A stretch of DNA of 64,000 nucleotides from Phymorhynchus buccinoides (lineage: Eukaryota; Mollusca; Gastropoda; Neogastropoda; Raphitomidae): assembly GCA_017654935.2 (NCBI GenBank), contig CM065700.1, forward strand, positions 50,684,427 to 50,748,426, read 5' to 3'. Under the pieces are notes generated by a model that saw only the letters and a program-made list of their open reading frames with translations, was not told where the DNA came from and did no database searches. Each line of letters starts with the position of its first letter. The stretch's first letter is position 1. Below are positions 9,926 through 56,574 of the stretch, piece by piece. The position numbers and the translations under genes were made by a program.

Positions 9926-9931
9926 TTTATT
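9926..9931 (-). promoter_or_regulatory. Candidate poly(A) signal AATAAA
   Basis: TTTATT on the plus strand gives AATAAA on the minus strand, about 134 nt past the stop codon of the tetraspan gene. Position and strand fit a short 3' UTR. A hexamer alone is weak evidence. Confidence 0.4.
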
Positions 9932-10064: not shown

Positions 10065-10303
10065 TCAGGGCTCCTGAACCTCCTTCGGTTTGGCTTCAGC
10101 GCGGTTCTGGCTGCAGCGGTAGCAGCGGATTTGGGCGGTGGAGATGGCGGCCAGGATCAAAGCCATCGTGCCGAAGACCACCACGTGCAGGGAGACCATC
10201 ATCAGGAGCACAGCCAGCTCCACGTCCAGAGCCAGGGACGACCCGCAAGGGAGGTAGGGCCATATGCCGGCCAGGCACAGGCGATAGGCCACAAACAGCA
10301 CCA
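10065..10303 (-). CDS. Tetraspan membrane protein, exon 3 (last)
   Basis: This exon encodes residues 185-263 and the TGA stop of a 263-residue protein. The 3' splice site is a pyrimidine tract ending CTGTTTCAG at 10304-10310. The first two exon bases (TG) complete a codon begun by the A of exon 2 (ATG, Met185), so the phase fits. It encodes most of a third hydrophobic segment (about 177-200), a short loop with a cysteine, a fourth segment (about 208-238) rich in V, L and M, then a cytosolic tail with a CYRC pair and a charged end (AEAKPKEVQEP). Codon use is GC-rich, unlike the surrounding repeats. I do not recognise the family: four membrane segments with a large first extracellular loop recall claudin/clarin-type tetraspans, but no claudin W-GLW-C-C signature is visible. 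The acceptor's intronic side begins the 47-bp array. Confidence 0.75.
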
Positions 10304-11948
10304 CTGAAACAGAGGAAAGTGTATGGAAGGTGAACGGCGTCAAAACAACACTGAAACAGAGGAAGGTGTATGGAAGGTGAACGGCGTCAAAACAACACTG
10401 AAACAGAGGAAGGTGTATGGAAGGTGAACAGCGTCAAAACAACACTGAAACAGAGGAAAGTGTATGGAAGGTGAACGGCGTCAAAACAACACTGAAACAA
10501 AGGAAAGTGTATGGAAGGTGAACAGCGTCAAAACAACACTGAAACAGAGGAAAGTGTATGGAAGGTGAACAGCGTCAAAACAACACAGGAACAGAGGAAA
10601 GTGTATGGAAGGTGAACAGCGTCAAAACAACACTGAAACAGAGGAAAGTGTATGGAAGGTGAACAGCGTCAAAACAACACAGGAACAGAGGAAAGTGTAT
10701 GGAAGGTGAACAGCGTCAAAACAACACTGAAACAGAGGAAAGTGTATGGAAGGCGAACGGCGTCAAAACAACACTGAAACAGAGGAAAGTGTATGGAAGG
10801 TGAACGGCGTCAAAACAACTCTGAAACAGAGGAAAGTGTATGGAAGGTGAACGGCGTCAAAACAACTCTGAAACAGAGGAAAGTGTATGGAAGGTGAACG
10901 GCGTCAAAACAACACTGAAACAGAGGAAAGTGTATGGAAGGTGAACAGCGTCAAAACAACACAGGAACACAGTAAAGTGTATGGAAGGTGAACGGCGTCA
11001 AAACAACTCTGAAACAGAGGAAAGTGTATGGAAGGTGAACAGCGTCAAAACAACACTGAAACAGAGGAAAGTGTATGGAAGGTGAACGGCGTCAAAACAA
11101 CACTGAAACAGAGGAAAGTGTATGGAAGGTGAACAGCGTCAAAACAACACTGAAACAGAGGAAAGTGTATGGAAGGTGAACAGCGTCAAAACAACACTGA
11201 AACAGAGGAAAGTGTATGGAAGGTGAACAGCGTCAAAACAACACTGAAACAGAGGAAAGTGTATGGAAGGCGAACAGCGTCAAAACAACACTGAAACAGA
11301 GTAAAGTGTATGGAAGGTGAACGGCGTCATAACAACACATGAACACAGTAAAGTGTATGGAAGGTGAACGGCGTCATAACAACACAGGAACACAGTAAAG
11401 TGTATGGGAGTTGAACGGCATCAAAACAACACTGAAACAGAGTAAAGTGTATGGAAGGTGAACAGCGTCAAAACAACACAGGAACACAGTAAAGTGTATG
11501 GAAGGTGAACGGCGTCATAAACAACACGTCAAAACAACACAGGAACACAGTAAAGTGTAAGGTGTATGGAAGGTGAACGGCGTCAAAACAACACAGGAAC
11601 ACAGGAAAGTGTATGGGAGTTGAACGGCATCAAAACAACACTGAAACAGAGGAAGGTGTATGGAAGGTGAACAGCGTCAAAACAACTCTGAAACAGAGTC
11701 AAGTGTATGGAAGGTGAACAGCGTCAAAACAACTCTGAAACAGTCAAGTGTATGGAAGGTGAACGGCGTCAAAACAACTCTGAAACAGAGTCAAGTGTAT
11801 GTAAGGTGAACAGCGTCAAAACAACACTGAAACAGAGGAAAGTGTATGGAAGGTGAACGGCGTCAAAACAACTCTGAAACAGAGGAAAGTGTATGGAAGG
11901 TGAACAGCGTCAAAACAACGCTGAAACAGAGGAAAGTGTATGGAAGGT
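10304..11948. repeat. 47-bp minisatellite, exon-proximal block, about 35 copies
   Basis: The unit contains CACTGAAACAGAGGAAAGTG, then TATGGAAGGTGAACGGCGTC, then AAAACAA. It starts exactly at the exon 3 boundary; on the minus strand most units read CACTTTCCTCTGTTTCAG then TG, identical to the real 3' splice site of exon 3. A minority read CACAGGAACA and have lost the CAG. The block is intronic in the tetraspan gene and is ended by a LINE insertion. Confidence 0.97.
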
Positions 11949-13679
11949 AAATCAGTTTTAAATGAGAAGAAAGTAGCCTTTCAAACAGGAGATAAAAGAG
12001 AAAGAAAAGTGGTTCAATCTAAACTTAGAGGGGAGTTAAGGAAGGGGCAGAGGGAGTATAAGGATAAAGTAGAACAGCAGTTTCAGACAGGCAGAATCTT
12101 AGATGCATGGGATGGGCTTCGAACTCTAACCGGCCAATCAAAAAAACGAACAGCAAATTGCCAAATGACCAGAGAAGAACAGAAGGATTTTTCTAATGAG
12201 CTAAATGACTTTTATTGTCGGTTTGAAAGAAATGATCTAGAGGGAGATCTAAACGGGGTAACATCACAGTTAAGAGAAAAAATTATCAATGCAAATGAAG
12301 ATCATGAATTTGAGGTTCAAGAAAGAGATGTTCAGTCCATATTTCAGAAACTAAATGTGAGGAAAGCTGTGGGACCAGATAATGTGTGTGGAAGATTGTT
12401 GAAAGCATGCTGTTCTCAATTGTGTGGTGTGTTTTGCTCTCTATTTAACTGGTCTTTACGCGATTGTGTTGTACCATGTATCTGGAAAAATTCTACAGTT
12501 ACTCCTGTCCCTAAGAAAAAGAACCCTGCCACACTGAACGATTACCGCCCTGTTGCCTTAACGTCTATTGCCATGAAATGTTTTGAAAAGATCGTCCTTC
12601 ATCGCCTTCTTTCTTTCACTAACCTACTCCTTGACCCCTTTCAGTTTGCCTACAAACGGTGTAGAGGAACAGACGATGCCTTACTGACCCTTCTTCACAA
12701 TGCCTTTCTTCACTTAAATACCCCCAACTCTTTTGTTCGTATTTTATTCATCGATTTCTCCTCTGCCTTCAATACAATACAGCCCCATTTACTGGCCCAG
12801 AAACTACTAGACCTGAATGTTAACCCCAAGCTCATTCTCTGGATAACCAATTTCCTACGCAATAGAACTCAGTCTGTCCGCTTTCAATCTGCAATCTCCT
12901 CAGAACGTTCGACTTCTACAGGTGCCCCCCAAGGAACAGTTTTGTCCCCAGTTCTTTTTACATTGTACACAAACGACTGTAGAGGCACTGAAGAAACACC
13001 TGTCATTAAATACTCAGATGATTCTGCCATCGAAGATTTGTCAAACTCTGATTCTGTGTACTTCAGTGAAGTCAAAAGGTTTTGTTCATGGTGCAAAGAT
13101 AATTATCTGGATTTAAATGTTGTTAAAACAAAAGAACTGCTTGTAGATTTTCGTAGAAACCCAGTGCCAGTGCCACATTTGGAAATTGATGGTGAAACGG
13201 TTGAAAGAATTGATGAGTACAAATACCTAGGCACAGTTTTAGACAAGAAACTTACTTTTGATAAACACATTGAGCATATACATAAGAAGAGTCAGTCCAG
13301 GATCTTTTGTTTACAGAGGCTAAGGAATATTGGTGTCTGTTCAGATATTCTTCAAACCTACTACCGATGTTGCATTGAATCTGTTCTTACTGTGTCATTT
13401 ATCTGTTGGTATGGAAGCTTGAGTGTAAAAAGTAAGCGTGTGTTGAGTGATATGGTGAATGTGTGTAGTAAAGTTGTGGGTGCAAGGCAGAGTGGTATGC
13501 AAGAGTTGTATGACAGACAAGTAGTCAAGAAAGCCAGGAAAATTCTTAATGATAACAGTCATGTTCTGGCAAAATACTATGAAGTATTACCATCGGGCCG
13601 TCGATACAGAACTCTAAAACTGAAAATAAGAGCACAGAAAACTTTCTTACCAAGATCAATTCATCTGTTGAACTCTTAA
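11949..13679 (+). CDS. Reverse transcriptase domain of LINE, ORF uninterrupted
   Basis: An open frame of about 576 codons without stop or frameshift. Counting from the satellite-derived ATG at 11940, which is not a true start, the RT landmarks come in order: NDYRPVALTS (about 199-208), FAYKRCRGTDDA (about 237), FIDFSSAFNT (about 270), TGAPQGTVLSP (about 326) and the catalytic YSDD (about 357, where many relatives have FADD). A thumb and C-terminal part with LPSGRRYR (about 549) and FLPRSIHLLN follow. This order and wording match the Rex1/CR1 group of the Jockey superfamily from general knowledge; no search was run. The intact frame suggests a recent insertion. It lacks the endonuclease and so is dead on arrival. 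Confidence 0.93.
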   Translation, partial: KSVLNEKKVAFQTGDKRERKVVQSKLRGELRKGQREYKDKVEQQFQTGRILDAWDGLRTLTGQSKKRTANCQMTREEQKDFSNELNDFYCRFERNDLEGDLNGVTSQLREKIINANEDHEFEVQERDVQSIFQKLNVRKAVGPDNVCGRLLKACCSQLCGVFCSLFNWSLRDCVVPCIWKNSTVTPVPKKKNPATLNDYRPVALTSIAMKCFEKIVLHRLLSFTNLLLDPFQFAYKRCRGTDDALLTLLHNAFLHLNTPNSFVRILFIDFSSAFNTIQPHLLAQKLLDLNVNPKLILWITNFLRNRTQSVRFQSAISSERSTSTGAPQGTVLSPVLFTLYTNDCRGTEETPVIKYSDDSAIEDLSNSDSVYFSEVKRFCSWCKDNYLDLNVVKTKELLVDFRRNPVPVPHLEIDGETVERIDEYKYLGTVLDKKLTFDKHIEHIHKKSQSRIFCLQRLRNIGVCSDILQTYYRCCIESVLTVSFICWYGSLSVKSKRVLSDMVNVCSKVVGARQSGMQELYDRQVVKKARKILNDNSHVLAKYYEVLPSGRRYRTLKLKIRAQKTFLPRSIHLLNS

Positions 13680-13960
13680 TGCACTGCATTGAGTGATTGT
13701 TTTGCTGAGCAGCCTGTCCATCTCCTTGGGATTGAATTTGTATTCGTATTCGTCCAGTTTGTTAACTACAATATTGCAGTGTTATTAGTTATTAGTTTAT
13801 ATTCTTTAATTGTTGATAAATGTGTTGTGGTTTTTGTTGTTGTTGATAAATGTGTTTATTGTTGCTGTTTTTCTTATGTGCACCTGGCTGCAATTTCTCA
13901 GTTATGAGATAATAAAAATGATTTGATTTGATTTGATTTGATTTGATTTGATTTGATTTG
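11949..13960 (+). mobile_element. 5'-truncated non-LTR retrotransposon (Rex1/CR1-like)
   Basis: A LINE inserted into the 47-bp array. The left junction falls in TATGGAAGGT, the right junction after a (GATTT)n tail at about 13919-13960, and the array resumes at ACGTCAAAAC. The endonuclease region and ORF1 are absent. A roughly 240-bp 3' UTR ends GAGATAATAAAAATG before the tail. No clear target-site duplication can be called because the target is itself repetitive. It is antisense to the host gene and sits in its intron 2. Confidence 0.92.
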
Positions 13961-14680
13961 ACGTCAAAACAACACAGGAACTGAGTAAAGTGTATGGGAG
14001 TTGAATGACGTCAAAACAACACAGGAACTGAGTAAAGTGTATGGAAGGTGAACAGCGTCAAAACAACTCTGAAACAGAGGAAAGTGTATGGGGGTTGAAT
14101 GACGTCAAAACAACACAGGAACTGAGTAAAGTGTATGGAAGGTGAACAGCGTCAAAACAACACTGAAACAGAGGAAAGTGTATGGGGGTGAAACGTCAAA
14201 ACAACACAGGAACTGAGTAAAGTGTATGGAAGGTGAACGGCGTCAAAACAACACTGAAACAGAGGAAAGTGTATGGGGGTTGAATGACGTCAAAACAACA
14301 CAGGAACTGAGTAAAGTGTATGGGAGTTGAATGACGTCAAAACAACACAGGAACTGAGTAAAGTGTATGGGAGTTGAATGACGTCAAAACAACACAGGAA
14401 CTGAGTCAAGTGTATGGGGGTTGAATGACGTCAAAACAACACAGGAACTGAGTAAAGTGTATGGGAGTTGAATGACGTCAAAACAACACAGGAACTGAGT
14501 AAAGTGTATGGGAGTTGAATGACGTCAAAACAACACAGGAACTGAGTAAAGTGTATGGGAGTTGAATGACGTCAAAACAACACAGGAACTGAGTAAAGTG
14601 TATGGGAGTTGAATGACGTCAAAACAACACAGGAACTGAGTAAAGTGTATGGGAGTTGAATGACGTCAAAACAACATTGG
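13961..14680. repeat. 47-bp minisatellite, distal block, about 15 copies
   Basis: The period is again 47 bp, but the unit is a different subfamily: ACACAGGAACTGAGTAAAGT, GTATGGGAGTTGAATGAC, GTCAAAAC. A few copies of the proximal type (CTGAAACAGAGG) occur at about 14058-14260, near the LINE. The LINE therefore separates two largely distinct variant populations of one array. Confidence 0.96.
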
Positions 14681-15485
14681 AAAAAAAAATGTACGTGAGC
14701 AGCCAAGTTGGGAATCTTTGAAAGTTCATTGTGTTGGTAATTCCAAATTGTTTTAAAAAATGTCTTCTTTCACGACACAAACAGATTACTTCTTTAATGA
14801 CTGTTTCGTCCGCTCCTGTGGACTTCCTCTGAGTGAATGACTGGATTAAAGCATCTCACACGATGCCCAAAAGATGCAAAGAGGACGGGGTCTAACATGT
14901 GAGGGGGATTATGCCACATGGGGTTTAAATGTCACTGAGAGGCAGACATTTCGTGTTGAGGGTGTGCACCCCGGTAAACGATGTGTACTCCAGTGAAAGG
15001 TGTGTGGTTGTATCACCCAAAGGACCCAAAGGACGCAAGGAGGACGGGGGCTAAGATGTGAGGGGGTGGGGAGGTGCAGGGCGTAACGGGCAAAGGACAT
15101 ATCTGCCAATTGGCGATGCCCTTGTTATTTATAAGTTGTTTTTTGCCAATTGACCAGTTTCTAAAAACTGTCACTCGAGCGCGGATGTGTCACGTTGCTG
15201 TTATGTGCCCAAGTTTGCCCGCCCGGGGACTTCATCTGCCACTCGGCGATCCACTTGTTGATTCTGTTATGTTTTTCATTATTTTTCTTTGAGGAAAATA
15301 TTCCTAAACTGATTCTAACCCTATTCCTTACCCGAGTGTAGGCAAAATTTGCATGAAAATCACATAGGGGATTTAGGGGCCGGTTCTAGGATTTAACCTT
15401 AAAATGTATGGGAGCTAAATGGCGCCAAGACAGCACTGAAACAAGGGAAAGAGTGGGAAAGGGCTACTGAATGTCCGTGGGTGGG
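14681..15485. other. Intron 2 spacer with diverged repeat fragments
   Basis: No gene. The segments near 14865-14920 and 15020-15065 share AGGACGGGG/AGGACGGGGGCTAA and ATGTGAGGGGG, an old duplication. Positions about 15168-15215 (GCGGATGTGTCACGTTGCTG) resemble the dispersed element at 1085 and 60060. Positions 15403-15452 are one diverged 47-bp unit (GTATGGGAGCTAAATGGCG, CACTGAAACAAGGGAAAG). Confidence 0.6.
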
Positions 15486-19925: not shown

Positions 19926-20160
19926 CAGACAAGTCAGACAAACAAGACAGACAAGACATGCAGACAGACAGACAAACGAGACAGACAAGACATGCAGACA
20001 GACAGACAAACGAGACAGACAAGACATGCAGACAGACAGACAAACAAGACATTCAGACAGACAGACAAACGAGACAGACAAGACATGCAGACAGACAGAC
20101 AAACGAGACAGACAAGACATGCAGACAGACAGACAAACGAGACAGACAAGACATGCAGAG
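19926..20160. repeat. 34-bp repeat, about 7 copies
   Basis: The unit is GACAAGACATGCAGACAGAC plus AGACAAACGAGACA, with one shortened, variant copy near 20040. The array ends about seven bases from the donor site of exon 2 of the tetraspan gene, so it occupies the very start of intron 2. Confidence 0.95.
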
Positions 20161-20166
20161 GCTTAC

Positions 20167-20313
20167 TGTGGCATAAGGTGAAACCCAGAGCCTTTGTCAT
20201 CCAGTAACACCTGCAGCGTTGGCAGCGGTCCCGGGCCACTAGACAGAGAGAGACCAGGAAGCCTGCCAACAGCCCGAACGCCGTGAACAGCACAGCCACT
20301 GTCACGGACCGCA
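20167..20313 (-). CDS. Tetraspan membrane protein, exon 2
   Basis: A 147-nt exon: two bases completing codon 136, 48 codons, and one base of codon 185. The acceptor is GATGTTGCAG before TGCGG; the donor is CACA before GTAAGC at 20161-20166. It encodes the second membrane segment (about 137-161: VAVLFTAFGLLAGFLVSLCL), a short basic cytosolic turn with clustered cysteines (RDRCQRCRC, possible palmitoylation), and the start of the third segment (from about 177). Entry and exit phases agree with exons 1 and 3, which is the strongest support for the model. The flanking sequence is repeat on both sides: the 34-bp array on the intron 2 side and a (CAT/CGT)n tract followed by the 57-bp array on the intron 1 side. 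Confidence 0.75.
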
Positions 20314-20315
20314 CT

Positions 20316-20535
20316 GCAACATCGGCATCAACATCGTCGTCATCAAGACCATCATCATCGTCGTCATCAACATCGTCATTATACAGTGCATAGAACCTTC
20401 CTTATAAGACCTCCCATTACAAGACTCCCTCCCATATAAGACGTACTTCTCTGAGATATTGCCCTTCTTTGTAAGCATTACAATTACCTCCCTTATAAGA
20501 CCTCATTTTGGATGATTTTTTAAGGTCTCATACGC
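20316..20535. other. Intron 1 spacer next to exon 2
   Basis: A trinucleotide-rich CATCGT tract (20327-20380), then three diverged copies of a CCTTATAAGACCTCC-like phrase (about 20398, 20440, 20490). No gene. Confidence 0.5.
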
Positions 20536-25465: not shown

Positions 25466-25471
25466 ACTTAC

Positions 25472-25877
25472 AAATCCATCGCTCAGTGAGGGAAAGTTCT
25501 TCCACAGTGGATGAGTTGGCAGGAGACACGGACTCATTGGAAATCTCTTCCACAATGGATGAGTTACAAGAAACGTTAGCAGTAGACACCGACGCATTTG
25601 AAATCTGTTCCACACAGGACGAATTAGAAGAAGAGCTGGCAGCAGCAGACAGCAAGGCATCGGTGCTGTCTTCTGGGCACCAGGTGGGCCTAGAGGAAAA
25701 CGGACACATGGACCTGGCCCACAGACAGCAGAGGAGGAAGTAGAAGCCTAGTTCTGCCAGCAGGAACACCACCATGCCCACCGTGAACGCTCTCCTGCAG
25801 CCTGTCTGGGACGCCACGTGCGCGGGGCAAGCCTTTGCACGGTCGCAGATGTTGCCTTTCGCATTTGGAGCGACCAT
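25472..25877 (-). CDS. Tetraspan membrane protein, exon 1 (start)
   Basis: This exon encodes residues 1-135 plus the first base of codon 136. The ATG at 25877 sits in a strong context (AAG before ATGG). The donor is TGGATTT before GTAAGT at 25466-25471. The N-terminus (about 1-30) has five cysteines or basic residues facing, by inference, the cytosol. Membrane segment 1 is about 31-53 (FTVGMVVFLLAELGFYFLL). The large extracellular loop (54-135) has cysteines at 58, 67, 88 and 104 and six N-glycosylation sequons (N85, N94, N101, N105, N114, N121) in a Ser/Thr-rich stalk made of tandem 16-20-residue repeats (NSSCVEQISNASV, NSSIVEEISNESV, NSSTVEELS). No cleavable signal peptide is evident. Family unknown; topology matches claudin-like tetraspans. 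Upstream exons cannot be excluded. Confidence 0.72.
25488..25640. repeat. Coding tandem repeat in tetraspan exon 1
   Basis: Three diverged copies of a phrase containing TCTTCCACAGTGGATGAGTT (25496) recur near 25546 (TCTTCCACAATGGATGAGTT) and 25606 (TGTTCCACACAGGACGAATT), spaced about 48-60 bp, all multiples of 3. They encode the glycosylated stalk. Confidence 0.8.
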
Positions 25878-51309: not shown

Positions 51310-52724
51310 TTCACCAGAATCATTCAGACAGTAACATTTCACTGGAATCATGCAGACAGTAACATTTCACCAGAATCATGCAGACAGTAACATCATTCAG
51401 ACAGTAACACCATGCAGACAGTAACATTTCACCAGAATCATGCAGACAGTAACATTTTACCACAATCATTCAGACAGTAACATTTCACCAGAATCATTCA
51501 GACAGTAACATTTCACCAGAATCATTCAGACAGTAACATTTCACCAGAATCATTCAGACAGTAACATTTCACCAGAATCATTCAGACTAACATAATTCAG
51601 ACAGTAACATTTCACCAGAATCATGCAGACAGTAACATAATTCAGACAGTAACATTTCACCAGAATCATTCAGACAGTAACATCTCACCAGAATCGTTCA
51701 GACAGTAACATCATTCAGACAGTAACATTTCACCAGAATCATTCAGACAGTAACATCATTCAGACAGTAACATCATTCAGACAGCAACATTTCACCAGAA
51801 TCATTCAGACAGTAACATTTCACCTGAATCATGCAGACAGTAACATTTCCCCAGAATCATTCAGACAGTAACATTTCCCCAGAATCATTCAGACAGTAAC
51901 ATCATGCAGACAGTAACATTTCACCAGAATCATTCAGACAGTAACATCATTCAGACAGTAACATTTCACCAGAATCATTCAGACAGTAACATTTCACCAG
52001 AATCATGCAGACAGTAACATTCCACCACAATCAATCAGACAGTAACATCATGCAGACAGTAACATTTCACCAGAATCATTCAGACAGTAACATTTCACCA
52101 GAATCATGCAGACAGTAACATCATGCAGACAGTAACATTTCACCAGAATCATTCAGACAGTAACATTTCACCAGAATCATGCAGACAGTAACATCATGCA
52201 GACAGTAACATCATTCAGACAGTAACACCATGCTGACAGTAACATTTCACCAGAATCATTCAGACAGTAACATTTTGCCAGAATCATTCAGACAGCAACA
52301 TTTCACCAGTATCATTCAGACAGTAACATTTCACCACAATCATTCAGACAGTAACATTTCACCAGAATCAACCAGACAGCAACATTTCACCACAATCATT
52401 CAGACAGTAACATTTCACCAGAATCATTCAGACAGTAACATAATTCAGACAGTAACATTTCACCAGAATCATGCAGACAGTAACATCATGCAGACAGTAA
52501 CATTTCACCAGAATCATTCAGACAGCAACATTTCACCAGAATCATTCAGACAGTAACATCATGCAGACAGTAACATTTCACCAGAATCATCCAGACAGCA
52601 ACATTTCAACACAATCATTCAGACAGTAACATTTCACCACAATCATTCAGACAGTAACATAATTCAGACAGTAACATCATGCAGACAGTAACATTTCACC
52701 AGAATCATTCAGACAGTAACATTT
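51310..52724. repeat. 28-bp / 17-bp mixed minisatellite, block 1
   Basis: The 28-bp unit TTCAGACAGTAACATTTCAC plus CAGAATCA mixes with short units of about 17-18 bp (CATGCAGACAGTAACAT). Variants include CCACAATCA and TCTCACC. The part from about 52040 on is duplicated at about 54940-55629 together with the LINE. Confidence 0.95.
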
Positions 52725-53669
52725 CAAGGCTCAGTACTTGGACCAGTCCTCTTCATCATGTACACTAAACCCCTGTCCGAGTTGATCACTTCTCATTCAG
52801 TTGATTCTCAGTCTTTTGCTGATGATACACAACTCCACAAGCCTGTATCCCCATCTACCATTCTTCCTTCTATATCTTCACTTGAATTCTGCATTCGCAA
52901 CATCAAATCATGGATGCTACAAAACAAACTGAAGCTGAATGACGACAAAACGGAGGCCTTGTTCATCCACTCTCCATCTAGAAAACTTCCGTACCCAAAG
53001 CCTGATTCCATCTCTGTCTGTGACACTCAAATACCTTTTTCTCCTTCTGCTAGAAATCTTGGCTTCCACATCTCTCAAGATATGAGTGTTGACTCACAAG
53101 TTCAAACTATCTGTCGGTCAGCATACTGTGAGCTGCGTCGCATTGGTACGATTCGCCATCTCCTGTCTATAGATACTACTAAAATACTAGTCTGCGCTTT
53201 TGTTCTCTCTAAACTAGATTATTGTAATTCACTCTTGTATGGCTGCCCCCAACACCTCATTGACAAGCTTCAAAAAGTCCAGAACTCTGCTGCCAGACTT
53301 GTCCTCAAGGTCTCTAAGTATCATCATGTTCAACCACTCCTGATATCCCTTCATTGGCTTTCCATCAAAGCACGTATTGACTACAAAATTTCCACTCTAT
53401 GTCATTCTTATTTCTCTGGAAATGCCCCTAGCTACATTTCTGACATGCTTTCTGTCTATACTCCATCAAGGCAATTGCGGTCATCTTCAGATTCCAAAAT
53501 TCTCTGTGTTCCTAGTACACGAACAAAAATGTTTGGTGAGCGCTCCTTTTCCTTTTCGGCCCCATCAGTTTGGAACTCCTTACCACGCGAAATCCGCCAT
53601 ATCCAGTCCTTGCAATGTTTCAAATCAGCTCTCAAGACCCACCTGTTCAAGCTACATCACAACCTTTAG
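52725..53669 (+). CDS. Reverse transcriptase C-terminal part, LINE copy 1
   Basis: An open frame of 314 codons plus stop from the insertion junction. Counting from the first ATG (52758), the catalytic box FADDTQLH is at about 20-27. A thumb region follows (SWMLQNKLKLNDDKTE at about 52), then the LINE-typical connection VQNSAARLVL, LLISLHWLSIKARIDYK and the end SALKTHLFKLHH. The wording is typical of L2/CR1-group LINEs from general knowledge. Endonuclease and the N-terminal half of RT are missing, so it is not functional. The upstream frame runs into satellite. Confidence 0.92.
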   Translation, partial: QGSVLGPVLFIMYTKPLSELITSHSVDSQSFADDTQLHKPVSPSTILPSISSLEFCIRNIKSWMLQNKLKLNDDKTEALFIHSPSRKLPYPKPDSISVCDTQIPFSPSARNLGFHISQDMSVDSQVQTICRSAYCELRRIGTIRHLLSIDTTKILVCAFVLSKLDYCNSLLYGCPQHLIDKLQKVQNSAARLVLKVSKYHHVQPLLISLHWLSIKARIDYKISTLCHSYFSGNAPSYISDMLSVYTPSRQLRSSSDSKILCVPSTRTKMFGERSFSFSAPSVWNSLPREIRHIQSLQCFKSALKTHLFKLHHNL

Positions 53670-54183: not shown

Positions 54184-55629
54184 CACCAGATTCATTCAGA
54201 CAGTAACATAATTCAGACAGTAACATTTCACCAGAATCATTCAGACAGTAACATTTCACCAGAATCATTCAGACAGTAACATCATGCAGACAGTAACATT
54301 TCACCAGAATCATGCAGACAGTAACATTTCACCAGAATCAATCAGACAGTAACATCATGCAGACAGTAACATTTCACCAGAATCATTCAGACAGTAACAT
54401 TTCTCCAGAATCATTCAGACAGTAACATCATGCAGACAGTAACATTTCACCAGAATCATTCAGACAGTAACATCATGCAGACAGTAACATTTCACCAGAA
54501 TCATGCAGACAGTAACATTTCACCAGAATCATTCAGACAGTAACATCATGCAGACAGTAACATTTCACCAGAATCATTCAGACAGTAACATTTCACCAGA
54601 ATCATTCAGACAGTAACATTTCACCAGAATCATTCAGACAGTAACATTTCACCAGAATCATTCAGACAGTAACATCATTCAGACAGTAACATTTCACCAG
54701 AATCATTCAGACAGTAACATTTCACCAGAATCATTCAGACAGTAACATCATGCAGACAGTAACATTCAGACAGTAACATTTCACCAGAATCATTCAGACA
54801 GTAACATTTCACCAGAATCGTTCAGACAGTAACATCATGCAGACAGTAACATTTCACCAGAATCATTCAGACAGTAACATCATGCAGACAGTAACATTTC
54901 ACCAGAATCATGCAGACAGTAACATTTCACCAGAATCATTCAGACAGTAACATCATGCAGACAGTAACATTTCACCAGAATCATTCAGACAGTAACATTT
55001 CACCAGAATCATGCAGACAGTAACATCATGCAGACAGTAACATTTCACCAGAATCATTCAGACAGTAACATTTCACCAGAATCATGCAGACAGTAACATC
55101 ATGCAGACAGTAACATCATTCAGACAGTAACACCATGCTGACAGTAACATTTCACCAGAATCATTCAGACAGTAACATTTTGCCAGAATCATTCAGACAG
55201 CAACATTTCACCAGTATCATTCAGACAGTAACATTTCACCACAATCATTCAGACAGTAACATTTCACCAGAATCAACCAGACAGCAACATTTCACCACAA
55301 TCATTCAGACAGTAACATTTCACCAGAATCATTCAGACAGTAACATAATTCAGACAGTAACATTTCACCAGAATCATGCAGACAGTAACATCATGCAGAC
55401 AGTAACATTTCACCAGAATCATTCAGACAGCAACATTTCACCAGAATCATTCAGACAGTAACATCATGCAGACAGTAACATTTCACCAGAATCATCCAGA
55501 CAGCAACATTTCAACACAATCATTCAGACAGTAACATTTCACCACAATCATTCAGACAGTAACATAATTCAGACAGTAACATCATGCAGACAGTAACATT
55601 TCACCAGAATCATTCAGACAGTAACATTT
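54184..55629. repeat. 28-bp / 17-bp mixed minisatellite, block 2
   Basis: Same units as block 1. The left part follows LINE copy 1 and corresponds to the sequence after LINE copy 2 at 57073 on. The right part (about 54940-55629) matches 52040-52724, shifted by 2,905 bp. It is therefore the junction zone of a tandem segmental duplication. Confidence 0.95.
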
Positions 55630-56574
55630 CAAGGCTCAGTACTTGGACCAGTCCTCTTCATCATGTACACTAAACCCCTGTCCGAGTTGATCACTTCTCA
55701 TTCAGTTGATTCTCAGTCTTTTGCTGATGATACACAACTCCACAAGCCTGTATCCCCATCTACCATTCTTCCTTCTATATCTTCACTTGAATTCTGCATT
55801 CGCAACATCAAATCATGGATGCTACAAAACAAACTGAAGCTGAATGACGACAAAACGGAGGCCTTGTTCATCCACTCTCCATCTAGAAAACTTCCGTACC
55901 CAAAGCCTGATTCCATCTCTGTCTGTGACACTCAAATACCTTTTTCTCCTTCTGCTAGAAATCTTGGCTTCCACATCTCTCAAGATATGAGTGTTGACTC
56001 ACAAGTTCAAACTATCTGTCGGTCAGCATACTGTGAGCTGCGTCGCATTGGTACGATTCGCCATCTCCTGTCTATAGATACTACTAAAATACTAGTCTGC
56101 GCTTTTGTTCTCTCTAAACTAGATTATTGTAATTCACTCTTGTATGGCTGCCCCCAACACCTCATTGACAAGCTTCAAAAAGTCCAGAACTCTGCTGCCA
56201 GACTTGTCCTCAAGGTCTCTAAGTATCATCATGTTCAACCACTCCTGATATCCCTTCATTGGCTTTCCATCAAAGCACGTATTGACTACAAAATTTCCAC
56301 TCTATGTCATTCTTATTTCTCTGGAAATGCCCCTAGCTACATTTCTGACATGCTTTCTGTCTATACTCCATCAAGGCAATTGCGGTCATCTTCAGATTCC
56401 AAAATTCTCTGTGTTCCTAGTACACGAACAAAAATGTTTGGTGAGCGCTCCTTTTCCTTTTCGGCCCCATCAGTTTGGAACTCCTTACCACGCGAAATCC
56501 GCCATATCCAGTCCTTGCAATGTTTCAAATCAGCTCTCAAGACCCACCTGTTCAAGCTACATCACAACCTTTAG
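55630..56574 (+). CDS. Reverse transcriptase C-terminal part, LINE copy 2
   Basis: The predicted protein from ATG 55663 is the same 303 residues as copy 1 (FADDTQLH at 20-27, end SALKTHLFKLHHNL). The absence of any change in the translation implies a very young duplication. It is non-functional for the same reasons as copy 1. Confidence 0.92.
   Translation, partial: QGSVLGPVLFIMYTKPLSELITSHSVDSQSFADDTQLHKPVSPSTILPSISSLEFCIRNIKSWMLQNKLKLNDDKTEALFIHSPSRKLPYPKPDSISVCDTQIPFSPSARNLGFHISQDMSVDSQVQTICRSAYCELRRIGTIRHLLSIDTTKILVCAFVLSKLDYCNSLLYGCPQHLIDKLQKVQNSAARLVLKVSKYHHVQPLLISLHWLSIKARIDYKISTLCHSYFSGNAPSYISDMLSVYTPSRQLRSSSDSKILCVPSTRTKMFGERSFSFSAPSVWNSLPREIRHIQSLQCFKSALKTHLFKLHHNL

Follow-up and report, generated by a model that had tools for sequence, protein, structure and literature searches.

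Tandem repeats that lie across exon-intron boundaries were named mirages in lancelets, where they have been described in the globin genes BflGb6 and BflGb9 and where a further case, in Adh3, is cited (PMC3087553). A mirage in PGBD5 has been added to these, together with a citation of one in troponin C (PMC3902484). According to the available text of the first of these papers, RT-PCR suggests that splicing at lancelet mirages is normal, and mirages were proposed to be seeds of new introns, the idea that introns may be gained by tandem duplication being credited there to Rogers (PMC3087553). In the available portion of a study of human genes, tandem repeats at exon-intron boundaries are likewise linked to possible new introns (PMC2812944). 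In the literature that we found, in which subscription journals are mostly not covered, mirages have been reported gene by gene and in lancelets only, and we found no report under that name from outside the cephalochordates. Note that in the available text of a paper on Conus introns simple repeats are reported, and we found no border repeats there.

Here we describe a 47-bp tandem array next to an inferred exon in a 64,000-nt stretch of the genome of the gastropod Phymorhynchus buccinoides (hereafter the window). As far as the available descriptions of lancelet mirages go, the resemblance is close. Both are minisatellite-like repeats over an exon-intron boundary in which many, but not all, of the copies keep the splice signal, and in this genome, as in lancelets (where units range from tens of bp to ~160 bp), 5′ and 3′ boundaries can both be duplicated. 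There are also differences. The array contains 49 whole units, compared with the six and three repeats given for two BflGb6 haplotypes, and its border unit is identical to interior units, whereas the border units of BflGb6 are described as left out of homogenisation. Moreover, unlike the lancelet mirages, each unit includes just two exon bases, the array is interrupted by a retroelement, and the host is a 2.12-Gb genome of another animal. The human cases and those of Rogers, in the available accounts, concern new introns inside former exons, whereas here the repeats enlarge an existing intron. Since it is a minisatellite-like tandem array, has a unit that spans the border of an inferred exon and retains the AG in part of its copies, the 47-bp array is most plausibly a mirage on the acceptor side, and a very long one, belonging to a class that is seemingly common in this genome.

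Two other kinds of splice-site repeat are relevant. The human IFI6 (6-16) minisatellite contains multiple splice donor sites and a repeat in intron 7 of factor VII is similar; like the 47-bp array these are tandem copies of a real splice site beside an exon, and they are on the donor side, comprise few copies and concern single genes. At NAGNAG tandem acceptors, several acceptors with a spacing of 3 nt compete for one exon. The array is not of this kind, as the AGs of its units are mostly 47 nt apart and those of CAGAG doublets 2 nt apart, and, in contrast to NAGNAG, each 47-bp unit carries branch-like sites, a tract and an AG.

Results

A candidate gene next to the array

On the minus strand of the window three exons can be joined in frame to give a protein of 263 residues with four hydrophobic membrane spans (spliced coding sequence of 792 nt including the stop codon), the two introns, of 5.2 kb (intron 1) and 9.9 kb (intron 2), both being phase-1. 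The coding part of exon 1 (25472-25877, with the ATG at 25877) specifies membrane span 1 and an Asn/Ser-rich loop and is followed by the donor GTAAGT at 25471. Exon 2 (20167-20313; 147 nt, both ends phase 1) has the donor GTAAGC and a weak acceptor, TTGCAG, at 20314 (score 3.76). The coding part of exon 3, up to the stop codon (10065-10303), is present at a single genomic locus and specifies span 4 as well as the remainder of span 3, which is restored over the exon 2/3 junction in the spliced translation. An AATAAA polyadenylation-like signal, read directly on the minus strand at 9926-9931, is situated 134 nt past the stop codon, and exon 3 is therefore probably the terminal exon. Note that exon 2 is itself flanked by repeats (window positions 20160-20380): a 34-bp CAGA/CATG array starts ~7 nt beyond its donor, and its acceptor is preceded by GATGTT-type repeats rather than by a pyrimidine tract.

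We scored codon use with a table made from 86 of the 90 exons surveyed below and compared each exon with length-matched, stop-free and repeat-free windows from the 64 kb, which overlap and so are not independent of one another. Exon 3 scored 0.574, and none of 628 matched windows was as high (maximum -0.101). Exon 2 scored 0.043, reached by one window in 2515, and exon 1 scored -0.132, above all 54 of its matched windows (maximum -0.257). A broader null that included tandem repeats, which the repeat-free null supersedes, gave 0.579 for exon 3 against a maximum of 0.184. By comparison with the surveyed exons, whose median was 0.523 and whose 5th percentile was 0.080 (in a run with tandem repeats in the null), the score of exon 3 looks typical; those of exons 1 and 2 look weak and are well under those of typical kinase or myosin exons.

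We entertained the idea that there is no gene here, that exon 3 is a chance open frame and that the array merely resembles splice sites. Two protein searches, of 5.8 billion proteins, returned no homologues, no Pfam family matched the product above the cut-off, and a search of the 2.12-Gb genome found no paralogues, the gene being a single locus and all other matches having an E value of 0.29 or worse. We nevertheless regard the absence of a gene as very improbable, given that exon 3 has a codon score above every matched window, that the phases agree over three exons, that there are four membrane spans of which the third is rebuilt across a junction, that an AATAAA follows the stop codon, and that the same arrangement occurs in undoubted gene families (see below). 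Judged by frame, phases, membrane spans and codon use, exon 3 looks like a coding exon.

Structure of the 47-bp array

The proximal part of the array occupies positions 10302-11948 of the minus strand (34 whole units plus 30 nt; 34.6 copies of period 47 according to TRF). The exon-3 acceptor reads, on that strand, CCATACACTTTCCTCTGTTTCAG and then TG, with the AG at 10305-10304 and the exon from 10303, and this AG is part of the last array unit (10302-10348), which enters exon 3 as CAG followed by TGGTGCTG. The consensus unit, also on the minus strand, is TTGTTTTGACGCCGTTCACCTTCCATACACTTTCCTCTGTTTCAGTG. Thus the central claim of the original prediction, that the array is an amplified 3′ splice site of an apparent coding exon, holds. 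So does its starting point at the border of exon 3; its end, which had been put at 11948, does not, as a distal block on the same strand at 13959-14676 contains a further 15 whole units and 14 nt behind a retroelement. The exon-abutting unit is identical at 47/47 bases to four interior units (11871, 11100, 10818 and 10489), which argues that the acceptor presumed to be used joins in the turnover of the array.

Dozens of acceptor copies had been expected upstream of the exon-3 site, and across both blocks TTTCAG is found in 29 of the 49 whole units, with 12 units having an AG six bases upstream and eight having no AG. The two blocks differ in composition. TTTCAG is present in 26 of the 34 proximal units, the other eight having TTCCTG or TTCATG in its place and no AG, and in 3/15 distal units, where 12/15 have ACTCAG shifted 6 nt upstream. 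If A denotes a unit in which TTTCAG is kept, B one with ACTCAG six bases upstream and o one with no AG, then the order from the far end towards the exon is BBBBBBBBABABABB in the distal block and AAAAAAoooAooAAAAAAAoAAAAAoAoAAAAAA in the proximal block. The G of the AG and a TGA near the start of the unit are invariant, while just two of the 47 columns vary more than the A of this AG (T in 18 of the 45 units of exactly 47 nt). That most units also share the first exon bases, as had been proposed, applies to TG only, and in 7/45 units of exactly 47 nt this TG is replaced by AG. Common ancestry of exon 3 and the unit start beyond the TG was considered and is unsupported, as 9.8% of shuffles align as well (12.4% for the isolated copy described below).

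An exact 18-mer of the unit occurs 21 times in the 2.12 Gb, always inside this locus, and the array is therefore not a chance pattern. A search of the genome with a 94-nt dimer, in which very common words are skipped, also found this locus only. We rejected a transposon-borne repeat because in these searches the unit was found at one locus and not dispersed. For context, the contigs of this genome are chromosome-sized (up to 105.8 Mb among those met) and tandem repeats span 42,257 of the 64,000 bases of the window, as counted from hand-merged TRF rows.

Insertions and an isolated copy in intron 2

The two blocks are separated by a non-LTR-type retroelement, apparently 5′-truncated, that is inserted at 11949-13958 on the plus strand, opposite to the gene (RVT_1, E 1.5e-25, on the open frame 11925-13676), and that ends in a (TGATT)n tail found by TRF at 13919-13961. 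Beyond the distal block there is a dispersed repeat copy of ~400 bp (14866-15259, minus strand), which corresponds to positions 229-622 of an 811-base query that gave 2871 first-look candidates, of which 40 were scored; among those 40, some genomic copies hold internal tandem units of their own. On the far side of this repeat, 725 bp beyond the array, lies an isolated, diverged copy of 1.3 units (15401-15462, minus strand; 48 of 62 aligned bases identical; score 34 compared with a best of 19 in 1000 shuffles). It crosses a unit-unit junction, so either the array was formerly longer or the 47-bp repeat is older than the present array. The AG of the isolated copy, at 15436, scored 12.95, which is the highest of the 209 AGs scored in intron 2 upstream of the array (exon 3, 9.42), and reading from exon 2 into this copy by eye leaves 16 codons open. 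Going by its sequence, this AG could be a relic acceptor.

Elsewhere in the window, two reverse-transcriptase-like open frames of 325 aa (52692-53666 and 55597-56571), alike in the 260 residues compared, sit ~2.9 kb apart; they belong to a larger repeated block and are flanked by arrays of like kinds, a pattern that suggests a recent block duplication.

Arrays at the borders of other exons

We surveyed 90 exons of this genome for arrays, 70 encoding kinase and 20 encoding myosin-head sequence. The sample comprises the 30 kinase matches with the best scores, taken with the limits that the search gave them (L042-L071, of which L069-L071 have equal scores and look like mutual copies), 40 further kinase matches picked down the list before their sequence was seen, with near-identical copies and internal stops excluded (L072-L111), and 20 of 68 myosin-head matches without stops, from the top of the list (L112-L131). 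Arrays were called by TRF if the unit was at least 15 bp, the copy number at least 1.9 and the position within 400 nt on each side of the match. Note that borders here are the edges of profile matches and not those of transcripts, and that the rates are rough because such edges are not exact borders and some matches perhaps have no adjacent intron.

Arrays touch or cross an exon edge in 24 of the 90 exons. By reading, the units contain the exon's own splice site together with exon sequence in 17/90, at nine acceptor borders (L060, L078, L084, L092, L104, L119, L120, L122 and L126) and ten donor borders (L068, L074, L078, L086, L090, L099, L113, L116, L126 and L130). The rate was 2/30 among the best kinase loci, 8/40 among the other kinase loci (10/70 for kinase in total) and 7/20 for myosin. 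Among the 30 best kinase loci, a TRF pass at 10 bp and 2.5 copies or more gave two arrays that overlap the match (L060 and L067), and the pass at 15 bp and 1.9 copies added L068. Left out of the 19 borders were L067 (stops; a possible pseudogene), L094, L096 (end of the coding region), L110, L118, L125, L127 and the left side of L074, where an array reaches the edge or almost does so but the unit does not clearly hold the splice site.

The closest twins of the 47-bp array, and the clearest cases, are L084 and L122. In L084, an exon of a TGF-beta-type receptor kinase, 83-bp units comprise the acceptor and 24 nt of the exon, with five copies in view; in L122, a myosin exon, units of 45-49 bp comprise the acceptor and ~13 nt of the exon, with nine copies in view. 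In the protein that best matches the L084 kinase exon (P0001, 95%), the residues before the exon start, in the protein's single frame, do not contain that start a second time, which gives a hint, but only a hint, that the L084 array is young.

With a 28-base probe, the AG was kept in 28 of 29 extra acceptor copies and the GT in 20 of 23 extra donor copies, shares that are biased upward because the copies were chosen by their likeness to the true border, and that do not include the donors of L078 and L116. These two donors were counted by reading; the 28-base probe missed both and an exon-side probe recovered both. The donor copies of L078 are shifted by two bases, and in L116 one of two further copies has no GT.

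Several loci showed further features. In L055, a 39-bp array right after the kinase match (2286-2481), seemingly in frame, is a possible coding minisatellite. L067 has a 73-bp array of kinase-like exon sequence (NSTIDLWSVGCVLAKLLTRSL; 1757-2405) with frame breaks, which would be either a small exon in repeated form or a pseudogene. The myosin exon L126 has each of its borders inside an array, the 73-bp unit of L130 contains the exon end, the donor and an AG-like site, and a two-copy 174-bp repeat in L096 (670-1021) is made up of the last codons, stop and 3′ flank of a kinase gene.

We also asked how often a 24-mer from just inside an exon edge has a further copy in the same locus, leaving out low-complexity probes. 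This was so for 10/83 edges on the acceptor side and 17/89 on the donor side, compared with 1/89 for the middle of the exon, 12/76, 15/74, 13/76 and 14/78 for four sets of intron positions, and none in shuffled loci. The edge test was also positive at L067 and L094; it found one further copy each on the donor side of L080, L097, L098, L111 and L117, and two further copies in L100 (acceptor side and exon middle), and none of these eight loci is counted in the 17. Arrays cover ~15-20% of the 200 nt of intron beside an exon and 13-16% of the last 25 nt. On the exon side, coverage is 11-12% over the first 30 nt and has dropped to 6-8% at 60-75 nt. Taken together, edge rates and coverage argue that arrays are not drawn to borders and are hardly kept off them, but are kept out of exon interiors.

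These numbers bear on the proposal, made in the original prediction, of a decoy or buffering array. Under selection, such copies would serve to bind splicing factors or to stand in for the true site. There are certainly many intact sites, and the extra copies in the survey mostly keep their AG or GT, with the upward bias noted above. On the other hand, sequence at exon edges is repeated no more often than that at intron positions, coverage falls at the border, and the acceptor columns are among the most variable in the 47-bp array. We therefore consider a decoy or buffer to be extremely improbable. Of the two ideas originally put forward, a tolerated by-product is the better one, and is in keeping with the 17 of 90 sampled exons that have their own splice sites in tandem units.

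The data also bear on the question of which came first. The 47-bp repeat might have begun as an intronic minisatellite that spread to the exon, in which case the acceptor now used did not seed the array but is one of its units, captured by the exon. In favour of this, the isolated copy at a distance of 725 bp from the array has both a unit-to-unit junction and a strong acceptor, TG is all that exon 3 and the unit share, and array coverage in this genome hardly changes along introns up to 50 nt from the border. Because only two exon bases are in the 47-bp unit, this unit alone, unlike those of L084 or L060, is no proof that growth began at the exon. However, the units of L060, L084 and L119 hold recognisable exon sequence, so growth over a border does happen, and the isolated copy may be a relic of a longer array that was broken by insertions, the dispersed repeat lying between the two. 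An origin within the intron is thus a possibility to be taken seriously, though in our judgement an unlikely one. We think it probable that local tandem duplication made a minisatellite grow over the last exon's 3′ splice site, and that the resulting array is a tolerated mirage.

Choice among the acceptor copies

We scored acceptors with a matrix built from 41 sites of this genome, which is small, is scored in-sample and includes some sites from border arrays. The presumably used exon-3 site scored 9.42, where the median of the training sites is 8.9, the TTTCAG units scored 7.4-9.9 and the AGs of B-type units 2.6-4.0. As far as such scores can tell, the used acceptor is unmarked by anything in the site itself.

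Joined to exon 2 in phase 1, all 49 upstream AGs of the two blocks run into a stop codon before exon 3. In 41 the stop comes after 3-5 codons (MLF, KLF, TLF or IPVLF, then stop), and in the other eight, which are the second AGs of CAGAG doublets, after 18-33 codons. Use of an upstream site would therefore truncate the protein early in the third membrane span. In other acceptor arrays of the survey, splicing to an upstream copy would in many cases, though not in all, run into a stop codon, and the inserted lengths show no rule of three.

It is conceivable that this is a poison-acceptor array, in which upstream copies are used at some rate and the length of the array tunes the yield of full-length protein. 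C. elegans minisatellites near alternative exons, which the available text of one paper links to splicing, provide a lead for such regulation, and both the 49/49 upstream stops and the scores of most TTTCAG units, similar to that of the used site, are as one would predict. Even so, the TGA lies within a homogeneous unit, so that one event accounts for all of the copies, 18 of the 45 units of exactly 47 nt have lost the A of their AG, and elsewhere upstream use is not always stopped and inserted lengths follow no rule of three. We consider a poison array very unlikely.

Returning to a tolerated mirage, the spliceosome would have to find the last of many similar sites. It had been suggested that the array is tolerated because scanning picks the proximal AG. 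Put in this way the idea finds no support, since two branch-like yTnAy sites precede the AG of the consensus unit. A scan that set out from such a site would settle inside each unit and give the last unit no advantage. According to the available text of PMC9225289, large flanking introns tend to favour those sites that are nearest to each other across the exon. Choice by exon definition fits better than scanning.

Discussion

We suggest the following course of events. Copies of the border would arise through slippage or unequal exchange, as in other minisatellites. Under exon definition in an intron as long as this one (9.9 kb), the winner would be the acceptor with the best pairing across the exon, ahead of copies that are followed by repeat alone, and exon 3's own enhancers and 3′-end signal would favour the last copy, with rare use of an upstream copy yielding a protein that ends early in membrane span 3. 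An array across a border would then be nearly neutral, because splicing still goes to the copy that adjoins the exon body, and such selection of the site by exon definition is likely to be why this array persists.

The sample suggests a genome-wide habit of repeated exon edges. Whether splice sites are amplified about as freely as intron sequence throughout this genome, at roughly one exon border in ten and with the extra AG or GT mostly intact, is a proposition to which we would give even chances. If it is true and the mRNAs are normal, such a genome would offer natural competition experiments between splice sites by the thousand, along with plenty of starting points from which new introns could arise.

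The choice that the spliceosome makes among identical sites is often studied with designed minigenes. Here there are ~40 competing acceptors before one exon, plus many smaller acceptor and donor cases in conserved genes whose protein sequence is known. Provided that the mRNAs are normal, it must be almost entirely the content of the flanking exon that decides which site is used. Moreover, if the sampled rate holds genome-wide, duplication of exon borders would be a common, nearly neutral class of mutation, from which alternative splicing and the gain of introns could realistically stem.
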